A stretch of DNA of 64,000 bases, from assembly GCF_900119895.1 (NCBI RefSeq), contig NZ_FQLR01000002.1:62001-126000 (forward strand), in the 5' to 3' direction. The position numbers and the translations under genes were made by a program. Positions 11,925-17,620 of this stretch are shown one piece after another. The stretch comes from Collinsella phocaeensis. Lineage in GTDB: Bacteria > Actinomycetota > Coriobacteriia > Coriobacteriales > Coriobacteriaceae. Every line of letters starts with the position of its first letter. Position 1 is the stretch's first letter. The notes beneath the pieces were generated by a model. That model saw nothing but the letters and a program-made list of their open reading frames with translations, did not search any database and was not told the DNA's origin.

Positions 11925-13580
<1,656 letters not shown>

Positions 13581-13656
13581 TTAGTGTACTACCAGCCCAC
13601 AGCGCCGATAGGTAGCTCTGCAAGTTCACGCACTCGAAACGAAACCTCAGAAAGAA

Positions 13657-13790
13657 CCTCAGAAAGGGGACAGGCACTTTTTTGAGAGCTCGAAGCGACC
13701 GTCGCTTTCCCGAGCGCCAAGGCGGCCGCGAAGCGCACCGCTTCAAAGTGCGGTCCCTGTCTCAAAAAAGTGCCTGTCCCCTTTCTGAGG
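13657..13790. repeat. REP-like inverted pair (family reference copies)
   Basis: Copy 1 (13657-13688): CCTCAGAAAGGGGACAGGCA, then CTTTTTTGAGAG. Copy 2 (13760-13790) is its reverse complement type (TCTCAAAAAAGTGCCTGTCC, then CCTTTCTGAGG). Each copy is an imperfect palindrome with arms CTCA../..TGAG and the asymmetric core GGGACAGGCAC. The pair lies upstream of pyrG, 71 bp apart. A further half-site CCTCAGAAAG precedes copy 1. Confidence 0.85.
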
Positions 13791-13817
13791 GCCCTTTCCG
13801 AGGGCCTGCCGCCGAGG

Positions 13818-13979
13818 TCAGCGTGCGGTCTTGACGCCGAAAACGAAGTACGCGACGTGGCCAAGCCACACGATGACGAGCACCGCGCGGCCGACGGGCG
13901 CGCCGCCCATGAGCGCGAACCCGATCGAGAGCAGCAGCGTCACCATGACCATGATGCGGACCTTGGTGGCGACGCTCAT
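13818..13979 (-). pseudogene. DUF454 (YbaN-like) C-terminal fragment
   Basis: 53 codons encode MSVATKVRIMVMVTLLLSIG, a short loop, a second helix and YFVFGVKTAR. This corresponds to the last two helices of DUF454 inner-membrane proteins, normally about 120 residues. The frame stays open upstream for a few codons and meets a REP copy at 13999, exactly where the missing N-terminal half should be. It is probably a truncated gene, though a short functional form starting at ATG 13979 cannot be excluded. Confidence 0.5.
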
Positions 13980-13998
13980 CCCGCGGCCCGCCACAGAG

Positions 13999-14031
13999 CT
14001 CTCAAAAAAGTGCCTGTCCCCTTTCTGAGAG
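13999..14031. repeat. REP-like palindrome at a gene-truncation junction
   Basis: A perfect family member (arms CTCTCA / TGAGAG, core AGTGCCTGTCCCC). It is sandwiched between the truncated sensor kinase (ends 14046) and the truncated DUF454 gene (from about 13999). Confidence 0.85.
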
Positions 14032-14045
14032 GCACAATCCCTGGA

Positions 14046-15059
14046 CTACAGGCCGGCCAGCAGCTCGAAGACGCGCGCCGCCATGGCGTCGACCTCCTCG
14101 CGCATGTTGTCCAGCCAGCGGCGCTGGCTGCCGACGGTCTCCTCCTCGTTCGCCTCCAGCGCGTCGATCGTGGCGGAAAGCGACGCGAGGGGCGTCTTGA
14201 GCTCATGCGACGCCCGCACGATGAACGCGCGCTGCCGTTCGGCGGCATCCTCGGCGGGCTTGAGCGCGCGACGGACCATGCGACGGCACACGAGCGCCAA
14301 CAACAGGCAACCGACCGCCCCCAGCACAGCGAGCATCTTGGCCAGCGAGGTGAGGGAGACAACGTCGGGCGTCACGTCGAGCATGCCGAGCATGCGCCCG
14401 GCGAGGTGGCCGTCCGCCACGTAATCCTGCAAGTCGCCGCTCGCATACCACGCGGTGTCCGAATTCTCCCCCGTCTCGGGATCATAGTCCGGGTTGACGC
14501 AGGCCACCGCGCTGTCCCACAGGAACGTCCGACCGCCCACCGTGATCAGGCGCTCCCACCAGAAGCGCGCGCGACCGGACGCGAAGGCATCGCTCGCACG
14601 CTCGATCAGCTCGGCAGCCTCCCCGTCGGTGAAGTCCGAGTCCTCGCCCGTCGTCACGCGCGATGGGCGCCGCAGCAACGTCACCGTGTCATCTGGAGCG
14701 TACAGCGCGACGAAGGCCTCGTGGAACCCCGGCAGGCCGTCCCATGTCGCGATATCGCGTCCAACACTCATGGGCAGAAAATCGCCCCGCTCGGGCCATG
14801 TGTAGGCTGCGACGGCCTCGGATGCCGTGGCATATCCGCCGAGCAGCACGTCTGGCTCGGGCCTCTCGGAGGTCATGGTGCCGTACAGCAGGGTCGCGGC
14901 GGACTCGTACGCCGTCGTGGCGGAGAACCCCCAAGCGCCCGTGAGCGCCACCACGAGGACGGCGCATGCCAGCACGCTGGACGTCAGCCATAGGCGGCGA
15001 TACGTCGCGGCTAGCCCGTCCCTCTCTTTCGCACCGCTCGCATGCTTCGCGCCCATCAT
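14046..15059 (-). CDS. Sensor histidine kinase lacking its ATPase domain
   Basis: 337 residues. One helix near 26-48, a roughly 190-residue extracytoplasmic sensor domain, a second helix near 238-258, and a HisKA dimerisation domain with the phospho-acceptor in VRASHELKTPL (His285). Translation stops only 52 residues after that histidine, so the whole HATPase_c domain is missing and autophosphorylation is not expected. The stop lies 15 bases from a REP copy. Start ATG has SD GGGGAG and the gene follows the response regulator by 24 bases, so the pair was a normal two-component operon before truncation. Confidence 0.8.
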   Translation of the reverse strand: MMGAKHASGAKERDGLAATYRRLWLTSSVLACAVLVVALTGAWGFSATTAYESAATLLYGTMTSERPEPDVLLGGYATASEAVAAYTWPERGDFLPMSVGRDIATWDGLPGFHEAFVALYAPDDTVTLLRRPSRVTTGEDSDFTDGEAAELIERASDAFASGRARFWWERLITVGGRTFLWDSAVACVNPDYDPETGENSDTAWYASGDLQDYVADGHLAGRMLGMLDVTPDVVSLTSLAKMLAVLGAVGCLLLALVCRRMVRRALKPAEDAAERQRAFIVRASHELKTPLASLSATIDALEANEEETVGSQRRWLDNMREEVDAMAARVFELLAGL

Positions 15060-15083: not shown

Positions 15084-15767
15084 TCACATCGCCCAGCGAT
15101 ACCCGACGCCGCGGACCGTCTCAATCCGGGGCATCGCGCCCGCCTTCTCAAGCTTCCCGCGCAGTGCATGCACGAGCACCTCGAGCCGGTTCTCGCCGCC
15201 GATGGTTGACGGACCCCAGAGGCTCGCGACGAGGTCGCCCTTCGCGACGGGCGCGCCGACGCGCGCCATAAGTCTCTCGAGCAGCTGCGCCTCGCGGGGC
15301 GTGAGAGCGATATCGCCGGCCCCCGCCGCCGTGGCGACGCGAAGCGAGAGGCCGCGCACATCGAGCTCGGCGCCGAAGGACGCGAGGGCGCGCGGGGGCC
15401 GTATCGCCAGCGGGCGGCGCGTCACCGCGCGGATCCGCGCGAGAAGCTCGCTTGCATGGAACGGCTTGGGCAGGTAGTCGTCCGCACCGGCGTCGAGGCC
15501 CGCGACGCGATCGTCCACGCCCGTGCGTGCGGTGAGCAGGATCACCGGTACCGATGAGCCCGCCGTCCGCAGGACCTGCAGAACCTCCAAGCCGCTCTTT
15601 TTCGGCAGCATGATATCGAGCAGCACGCAATCGTGCGCCCCGGTGAGGGCGAGCTCTTCAGCGCGCTCGCCATCCGTCGCGATGTCGACACCATAGCCCT
15701 GCTTGCGCAGGACCTCGGCCTCCGCCTCCGCCAAGCGCGGAGCATCCTCGCAAAGCAAGATGCGCAT
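15084..15767 (-). CDS. OmpR-family response regulator
   Basis: 227 residues. Receiver domain with acidic pocket ED (residues 7-8), phospho-acceptor Asp51 in VLLDIMLPK, Thr in LLTART and Lys in YLPKPF. The C-terminal winged helix (Trans_reg_C) ends in VRGVGYRWAM. ATG 15767 follows GGGAGGTGCCCG. It is encoded between a BceB-like permease and the truncated kinase and probably regulated that permease. With the local kinase broken it may be an orphan or take phosphate from elsewhere. Confidence 0.92.
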   Translation of the reverse strand: MRILLCEDAPRLAEAEAEVLRKQGYGVDIATDGERAEELALTGAHDCVLLDIMLPKKSGLEVLQVLRTAGSSVPVILLTARTGVDDRVAGLDAGADDYLPKPFHASELLARIRAVTRRPLAIRPPRALASFGAELDVRGLSLRVATAAGAGDIALTPREAQLLERLMARVGAPVAKGDLVASLWGPSTIGGENRLEVLVHALRGKLEKAGAMPRIETVRGVGYRWAM

Positions 15768-15870: not shown

Positions 15871-16017
15871 CCTCAGAAAGGGGACAGGCACTAATTTGAG
15901 GCGCAGACGAGACGAAGCCATCGTAGCGGACGGCGCGAGGGCCGTGACCTCAAAAAAGTGGTAGCGGACGGTGCGAGGGCCGCGACCTCAGAAAAGTGCC
16001 TGTCCCCTTTCTGAGGT
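15871..16017. repeat. REP-like inverted pair with 38-bp tandem duplication
   Basis: Copy 1 at 15871-15901 and oppositely oriented copy 2 at 15985-16017. Between them a 38-bp unit occurs twice in tandem (15923-15960 and 15961-15998, differing at about three positions). The second unit runs into copy 2, as if part of the element had been duplicated. Copy 2 overlaps the end of the permease gene. Confidence 0.8.
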
Positions 16018-17379
16018 TTCCAGCACCACGCGCTCGACGGCGCGGGCGGTGATCGCCCCGTACGCCGCCATGAGGCCGATCGTGAAGGCGAGCACGCCCG
16101 CGACGATCGCAAGCAAGCCCTCGGCACCGATCGCGAACGCGAGGAACGCCACGAGGAACAGCCCGAAGACGTCGTGGACGAGTGCCCCGGCGAGCGGCGC
16201 GGCGAAGTAGAGCGCGAGCTGCCGGCGCACGGACGCGCGCATGAGGGCGCGGTCGCACCCGAGCTGTCCCAGCACCCCGTACGCGCGCCGCGCATCGACC
16301 GCGCCCGAAAGCTGCTGGAGCGCGAGCACCGCGACGGCGCTCAGCAGGAACACCGCCCCGTAGAAGATGCCGATGTAGCCGATCGGCGCCATCGACGCCG
16401 CGATGCCGGCCGAGACCATCTCGGGCGTGCGCAGCCCGATGCTGAAGACGAATCCCGCGACCATCATGCACACGGCCACCGCGACGAGCACGCATACGCA
16501 GGCGAGCGCCATCGAGGTGCTGGACACGCGCGCCTCGACCTGCCGTACCGTGAAGGCGGTGAGCCCGTCCCAGTACCGCTCGGAGCGCCCGCGCACCCGA
16601 TCGCCCCACGCGGCCACGCCCAGGCGCGCGACGAGCGACGTGGCGAAGCAGGCGGCGAAGCCCATGGGGATGATGAACGCGATGAAGTACACCGGTTGGA
16701 ACACGCACGAGCCCCATACGACCGCGAGCAGGACCGCGGCGAGCACCGCCTGGCCGCCCCGCGCGACCCGGCCGCCGAGGCGCATGCGCTCCGGCGCGCG
16801 CTCGGCGGACATGAGCTCGATCAGCGGGCGCCGCGCGATGTCGCGCGCGCCGTCCGCCGCGTTCACCGCGAACACCACGGCGAAGCACCCGGCGGTCCAT
16901 ACCGCAGCGTCCGGCGAGAAGGAGAACGCGAGCCTCCAGGGAACGTCGAACACGAACGCCGCGACCGCGCCGAACGCGGGCGATAGCGCCGCGCCCGCCC
17001 CCAGGCCGCACGCCAGCGCCCCGGCGCCCACGAGCGCCGTCTCGGCCACGAGCACGCCCGATACCGCGCCGCGCCCCATGCCGCACAGCTCGTAGAGGGC
17101 GAACTCGCGCTTGCGCCGGCGCAGCAGGAAGCGGTTGGCGTAGCGCACCAGGAAGAGGAACACGAGCACCGTGAAGACGGAGAACGCCTGCAAGACGTCG
17201 CCCGCGCTCCCCAGCACGCCCATCTGCTCGGACGAGAGTCCCATGGCGCGCAGGTGGTCGGTCGACGCCACGAACGAGTACAGCAGGCACGCCGCGAACC
17301 CGAGCGTGACGAGGTACACCGAGTAGTCGCGCGCGCTGCGGCGCACGTTGCCGATGGCGAGCTTGAGAAGCAGTCGCAT
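15988..17379 (-). CDS. FtsX-type ABC permease (BceB-like), no cognate ATPase nearby
   Basis: 463 residues. Opening MRLLLKLAIGNVRRSARDYSVYL and an FtsX block from about 50 to 160 with ANRFLLRRRKREFALYELCG, which is characteristic of bacitracin-type (BceB/VraG) permeases. Ten or so hydrophobic segments are visible, but the long extracytoplasmic domain is short compared with the usual 600-plus residues. ATG 17379 follows CGGAGGGATCATC. The last residues (TSERGQALF) are encoded by the REP copy at 15985. A BceA-like ATPase, normally adjacent, is absent, consistent with a decaying Bce module. Confidence 0.7.
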   Translation of the reverse strand: MRLLLKLAIGNVRRSARDYSVYLVTLGFAACLLYSFVASTDHLRAMGLSSEQMGVLGSAGDVLQAFSVFTVLVFLFLVRYANRFLLRRRKREFALYELCGMGRGAVSGVLVAETALVGAGALACGLGAGAALSPAFGAVAAFVFDVPWRLAFSFSPDAAVWTAGCFAVVFAVNAADGARDIARRPLIELMSAERAPERMRLGGRVARGGQAVLAAVLLAVVWGSCVFQPVYFIAFIIPMGFAACFATSLVARLGVAAWGDRVRGRSERYWDGLTAFTVRQVEARVSSTSMALACVCVLVAVAVCMMVAGFVFSIGLRTPEMVSAGIAASMAPIGYIGIFYGAVFLLSAVAVLALQQLSGAVDARRAYGVLGQLGCDRALMRASVRRQLALYFAAPLAGALVHDVFGLFLVAFLAFAIGAEGLLAIVAGVLAFTIGLMAAYGAITARAVERVVLETSERGQALF

Positions 17380-17620
17380 GATGATCCCTCCGAACGTCTT
17401 GACGGCATCCATTCTCGCGGGCGCATGGTACGGTCGCCATCGATTCTGCTTACACGTGGCGAACAAAACCGTAAGGTTCCTGCGAGGCGCGGAGGCACAG
17501 GATGCGGGAGAACGCTCCGAAACCGCTTATCGCCGGCAGGGAATAACATCATGCCCTGCCCCTACCCGCAGGCCGTCTCCCTGCGGACGGACCGCCGACG
17601 GAGGGGCCAGAAGGGCCCCG
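17380..17620. other. Intergenic region upstream of BceB-like permease
   Basis: About 240 bp separate the permease start from the terminator of the small protein at 17692. A hairpin GGGGCC / GGCCCC occurs near 17603-17619. No gene, and no trace of the expected ATPase gene, was recognised. Confidence 0.45.

Follow-up and report, generated by a model that had tools for sequence, protein, structure and literature searches.

The window, the 64 kb stretch of DNA analysed here, carries between pyrG and an FtsX-type permease gene a block that holds a response regulator gene, a short membrane sensor gene and the remnant of a third gene, with REP and REPIN repeats at its edges and at its internal junction. 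The features of this locus are as follows.

11925 to 13574, minus strand: pyrG (CTP synthase), the neighbourhood anchor, which lies with phosphoesterase, FtsX and kdp genes in the relatives G028, G005 and G020
13655 to 13795: REPIN upstream of pyrG, an inverted pair of exact REP copies (13658 to 13681, minus strand; 13766 to 13789, plus strand)
13818 to 13993, minus strand: 3' remnant of a DUF454 (YbaN-like) gene, a partial match to PF04304 with the N-terminal half absent
13999 to 14031, plus strand: single REP between the DUF454 remnant and the kinase-like sensor gene, an exact 24-mer match
14046 to 15059, minus strand: HATPase-less membrane sensor (type A), with HisKA as its only Pfam domain and an AlphaFold2 model; its architecture is common to G028, G005 and G031
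15084 to 15767, minus strand: cognate OmpR-type response regulator (RR) with Response_reg and Trans_reg_C domains, 24 bp upstream of the sensor gene
15872 to 16015: REPIN joined to the FtsX gene at its 3' end, a hairpin-forming pair of REP copies (15872 to 15895, minus strand; 15992 to 16015, plus strand)
15988 to 17466, minus strand: FtsX-type permease (PF02687), aligned with its orthologues in G028, G005 and G020

Searching with the REP 24-mer AAAAGTGCCTGTCCCCTTTCTGAG and allowing up to 3 mismatches, we found 14 copies in the 64 kb window against 0.00 expected from shuffled sequences. Many of these form inverted pairs (REPINs), and both REPINs tested fold into strong hairpins; the one upstream of pyrG reaches -59.1 kcal/mol as DNA (z -11.5), and the 33-nt hairpin of the single REP at 13999-14031 reaches -4.1 kcal/mol (z -2.8). 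Short palindromes that are numerous and mostly paired in inverted orientation, together with a RAYT (Y1_Tnp) gene flanked by copies, identify the repeats as a REP/REPIN population. The RAYT gene itself (G000:C1:1412437, L217) has five REPs within ~1.2 kb and one in-frame TAA, which may mean that the REPs here have been left without a transposase.

Comparison with relatives shows what the block displaced. The order in G028, G005 and G020 is kdp genes, XRE gene, FtsX permease, metallophosphoesterase and pyrG, whereas in the window the metallophosphoesterase gene is absent from the FtsX-pyrG site and a block of REPIN, RR, sensor, REP, DUF454 remnant and REPIN stands in its place. Homology of the FtsX gene ends at 16021, three residues short of the natural stop and exactly where the REPIN begins, so that the REP-coded tail ETSERGQALF stands in for its last three native residues (PRV); at 15988-16020 the REPIN thus supplies both the new C-terminal codons and the stop of the interrupted gene. 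At the pyrG edge, the REPIN at 13655-13795 aligns with the REP-like palindrome CCTCAAATTAGGGACWGTCCCTCATTTGAGG that all three relatives have at this position, which makes it an ancestral REP-like site. The window genome does hold a phosphoesterase elsewhere, at 75% identity compared with 96-97% between the relatives' copies, and this greater divergence indicates that it is probably a paralogue. Two further observations concern the relatives' own loci: G028 has a second, split metallophosphoesterase gene copy that is apparently frameshifted (G028:C1:984376-985076), and G020 has, inserted between kdpC and the XRE gene of this conserved neighbourhood, a gene for a 639-aa protein similar to elongation factor G and to tetracycline ribosomal-protection proteins, accompanied by a short recombinase-like piece (L164 9769-11965, G020:C28).

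The DUF454 gene is a real 5' truncation ending at a REP. The remnant matches only positions 62-114 of the 115-position PF04304 model; the match that scores 20 bits, against a gathering cut-off of 35.1 bits, covers positions 67-114, and the gene is thus a fragment and not a full-length domain. Its homology extends to ~6 bp from the central REP, it is the sole DUF454 match in its genome, and nine congeners have the full-length domain. The remnant (13818-14048 region) also lies in the reading frame of the kinase-like gene, separated from it by one TAG and REP-coded codons; nothing supports readthrough of this TAG from the one into the other. An earlier note, made from the DNA of the window by itself, had proposed that one deletion between two REP copies clipped both this gene and its kinase neighbour, and the DUF454 half of that proposal stands. 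Synteny also bears out the idea that REPs mark rearrangement breakpoints here, although in the event it reveals a REP-bounded block took the place of the phosphoesterase gene that lay between FtsX and pyrG, and a single deletion joining the kinase and DUF454 genes is not supported. The coincidence of both block edges and the cut DUF454 end with REP or REPIN copies points to REP-associated recombination as the candidate process that produced the block, one that would account well for the arrangement; this reading is drawn from breakpoint position only, and the REPs could instead have entered at the breakpoints later.

The sensor gene encodes 337 aa, with HisKA at residues 276-330 (PF00512, 31.5 bits against a cut-off of 26.9), the phospho-His in an HELKTP box and no HATPase_c by Pfam. 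Its stop codon occupies 14046-14048, leaving 14 bp to the REP at 13999-14031, so the earlier description of a sensor kinase without HATPase domain ending near a REP is accurate; the wording that the kinase loses this domain is interpretation and finds no support. The protein has two TM helices and, outside the cytoplasm, an alpha/beta domain; a complete DHp hairpin follows, and the stop comes directly after it. In the AlphaFold2 model (mean pLDDT 73), the DHp helices span residues 230-303 and 310-336, such that the hairpin reaches nearly to the final residue and the protein ends where DHp helix 2 naturally ends. A Foldseek search of the PDB with this model returned no confident match, only weak HAMP-DHp matches to the helical part. 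The protein is accordingly not an orthodox histidine kinase, having the DHp and phospho-His but lacking HATPase_c (the CA domain), and it corresponds in architecture to the archaeal-type "HisKA, no HATPase" class, in which a sensor and a DHp with conserved His occur without HATPase.

Whole-genome searches within the genus recovered type A kinases in G028, G005 and G031 at 34-39% identity to the window sensor. These proteins of 361-388 aa end soon after the DHp with HATPase absent, and compared with them the window sensor is missing only an unconserved tail. None of the three genes has a REP at its 3' end, and six-frame whole-genome PF02518 scans detected no HATPase near type A genes in any frame, which also rules out a frameshift or a separate HATPase gene downstream of the kinase. 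A second, shorter group of the same architecture (type B) occurs in G013, G005 and G017; for G013 and G017 the HATPase check covered the neighbouring genes by ORF calling only. The short architecture thus totals seven loci in six congeneric genomes, which rules out misassembly of a single genome as its source. Counting from the phospho-His, the open frames of these seven run for another 53-91 residues, compared with at least ~190 in almost every full-length relative, and this length was our criterion for CA loss since the HATPase G1 box of the group reads NTGPG rather than DxGxG. The family is known here from one genus: a scan of named genomes gave DHp-level matches to other kinases only and confirmed the short architecture in none of them. 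One further candidate, L185 (G366), was rejected as an apparent ordinary truncation: it stops inside the CA linker, and its locus comes from a genome in fragments.

An OmpR-type response regulator gene adjoins all seven sensor genes. The five regulators aligned with the window RR are 43-66% identical to it, and D8, D51, T79 and K101 are invariant across the six, meaning that all phosphorylation residues are kept. Two type A loci are adjoined by an MFS transporter gene, a possible target. DHp-only fragments with an HDLVTP box lie beside complete two-component genes at L127 6914-7165 (G028) and L128 5885-6145 (G021) and are probably decayed type B sensors. In all three type B loci a small protein of 104-116 aa that looks exported is encoded ahead of the RR and sensor; it is possibly the signal or an accessory protein, and the two that were scanned have no Pfam match:

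L125 8240 to 8590: small exported-looking protein, type B
L126 4627 to 4941: small exported-looking protein, type B
L211 4254 to 4604: small exported-looking protein, type B

The DHp sequences carry both conserved and altered positions. All seven HATPase-less sensors keep the HELKTP box, with the H-box H, E(+1), K(+3), T(+4) and P(+5) invariant (7/7). The Asp/Asn at H-3, by comparison, is lost in 7/7 of these sensors while being kept in 117/120 full-length relatives, including 41/41 from the genus, family and order of the window; given that the seven proteins stem from at most two lineages, this does not amount to seven independent events. The change at H-3 and at neighbouring helix positions suggests that contact with a CA domain has been lost. 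Where tested, the DHp domain is under purifying selection, with dN/dS of ~0.14 (L002-L003) and ~0.22 (L125-L211) and non-synonymous change clearly lower in the DHp than in the sensor part. In a tree of 135 columns, type A and type B each form one clade and full-length kinases of G021 and G001 lie between them, suggesting at the limited resolution of this tree either two losses of HATPase or, less parsimoniously, a single one. The nearest relatives found for the HATPase-less sensors are full-length kinases of the same genus, making it likely that they arose independently of the archaeal "HisKA, no HATPase" proteins. The kinase-like gene is, then, complete and intact, and belongs to a small family in bacteria whose members are HATPase-less membrane sensors.

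Without a CA domain, such a sensor can neither autophosphorylate nor itself use ATP. The family lost its HATPase/CA domain long ago while keeping the sensor, TM helices, DHp and paired RR. We propose that an external signal would alter the conformation of the DHp and thereby set the rate of RR dephosphorylation, and that the phosphate on the RR would come from a small-molecule donor or another kinase. The sensor is most likely a signal-gated response-regulator phosphatase: EnvZ and NtrB need no more than their DHp to act as phosphatases (PMC3510030), and the present sensors retain Thr at H+4, the position on which this activity depends in HisKA proteins (PMC3510030). Counting against this model, CA strongly increases the phosphatase activity of the EnvZ and NtrB DHp (PMC3510030). 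The best joint explanation of the locus, which we hold with about as much confidence as doubt, is that a signal-gated RR phosphatase sensor resides in a block swapped in with REP-associated recombination. In more general terms, and with doubt somewhat outweighing confidence, we suggest a two-component system without a kinase of its own, in which CA was lost, H-3 was re-specialised and the signal acts only through controlled RR dephosphorylation, having arisen once or twice in one genus and been kept by selection.

The reading of the earlier note, in which the 3' end of a normal kinase gene (its HATPase) and the 5' end of DUF454 were lost together in one deletion from REP to REP, draws on the true cut of DUF454 at a REP and on the other breakpoints here, which also lie at REPs. 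By the criterion that the note itself set, the kinase part is refuted by comparison with the congeners: three of them have an equally short HATPase-less kinase whose 3' end lacks a REP and has no HATPase nearby, and it follows that the REP did not remove this domain. Moreover, the window protein runs on to where DHp helix 2 naturally ends and lacks nothing but the unconserved tails of its relatives, its H-3 change is common to the other HATPase-less proteins, and a type A kinase and DUF454 are neighbours in no other genome examined. We regard this as the least probable of the readings. Decay of the short kinases into genes without function is nearly as hard to sustain and very improbable; that genes of this kind decay is evident in G028 and G021, where DHp fragments lie beside other two-component genes, but here open frames persist at ~35% identity, all H-box residues are kept, the RR partner retains every phosphorylation residue, and the low DHp dN/dS contradicts this reading. 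In two-component systems both reverse phosphotransfer and binding of the RR proceed without ATP, and the kept DHp surface and His would suit a phosphate sink or a non-catalytic RR-binding protein, acting through RR sequestration or through transfer from RR~P back to the His; we consider this improbable, as the Thr at H+4, the phosphatase position, is kept in 7/7.

A split kinase, in which the sensor His is phosphorylated in trans by the CA of another protein, or within a heterodimer with a complete kinase, and the phosphate then passes to the RR, is unlikely overall yet stays a serious rival because the acidic residue at H+1 is kept together with the His in 7/7. In CrdS this acidic residue is needed for kinase but not for phosphatase activity (PMC3510030), so phospho-acceptance may still matter in these proteins. 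Split kinases do exist, as CheA3/CheA4 (PMC3591291) and Hik36/Hik43 (PMC7656254) illustrate. Against such an arrangement, no CA-only partner gene was found near type A genes, three of the four HATPase hits in this genome that stand unpaired and were inspected are not obvious partners, being a STAS-type fusion, a LytS-type kinase and an ATPase with helix-turn-helix, and the changes at H-3 and its neighbouring helix positions speak for a lost CA contact.

Short HisKA proteins are usually classed as broken or misannotated kinases. Seven conserved RR-linked sensors make the phosphatase-only (or half-kinase) sensor testable in natural bacterial proteins, and the DHp positions that changed without CA (H-3, H-4 and H+8) may mark the CA-contact residues of ordinary kinases. 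For the locus as a whole, synteny with relatives revealed REPs exactly at the breakpoints of a gene replacement. Its repeats resemble known REP/REPIN and RAYT systems (PMC3116915, PMC8266576) in being short palindromes, often in inverted pairs with long hairpins, with a flanked Y1_Tnp gene, but differ in having a motif centred on GTGCCTGTCCCC and a RAYT gene interrupted by a stop in frame.

Among signalling proteins, CheA3/CheA4 (PMC3591291) and Hik36/Hik43 (PMC7656254) likewise have their phospho-accepting His on a protein that carries no CA itself; those, however, are of CheA/Hpt type with a known CA-bearing partner, of which we found none here. The DHp of EnvZ and NtrB without CA is also of HisKA type and dephosphorylates the RR (Zhu et al. 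2000, cited in PMC7005713; PMC3510030), but those are laboratory constructs, whereas here the natural protein is CA-less. Another parallel is with the archaeal "HisKA, no HATPase" proteins, the P2CS "possible incomplete histidine kinase" class of Archaeoglobi and Methanomicrobia with PAS/GAF sensors (PMC5847659). These nonenzymatic HK-like proteins also combine a sensor region and a DHp with conserved His in the absence of HATPase, and a phosphatase role has been proposed for them too (PMC5847659). Unlike them, the present proteins have a bacterial two-TM sensor, an adjacent OmpR-type RR, two distinguishable groups and a shared H-3 change. The phosphatase idea therefore has an archaeal precedent, while a bacterial family that is conserved, linked to an RR and marked by a common change in the DHp appears to be new in the literature searched.
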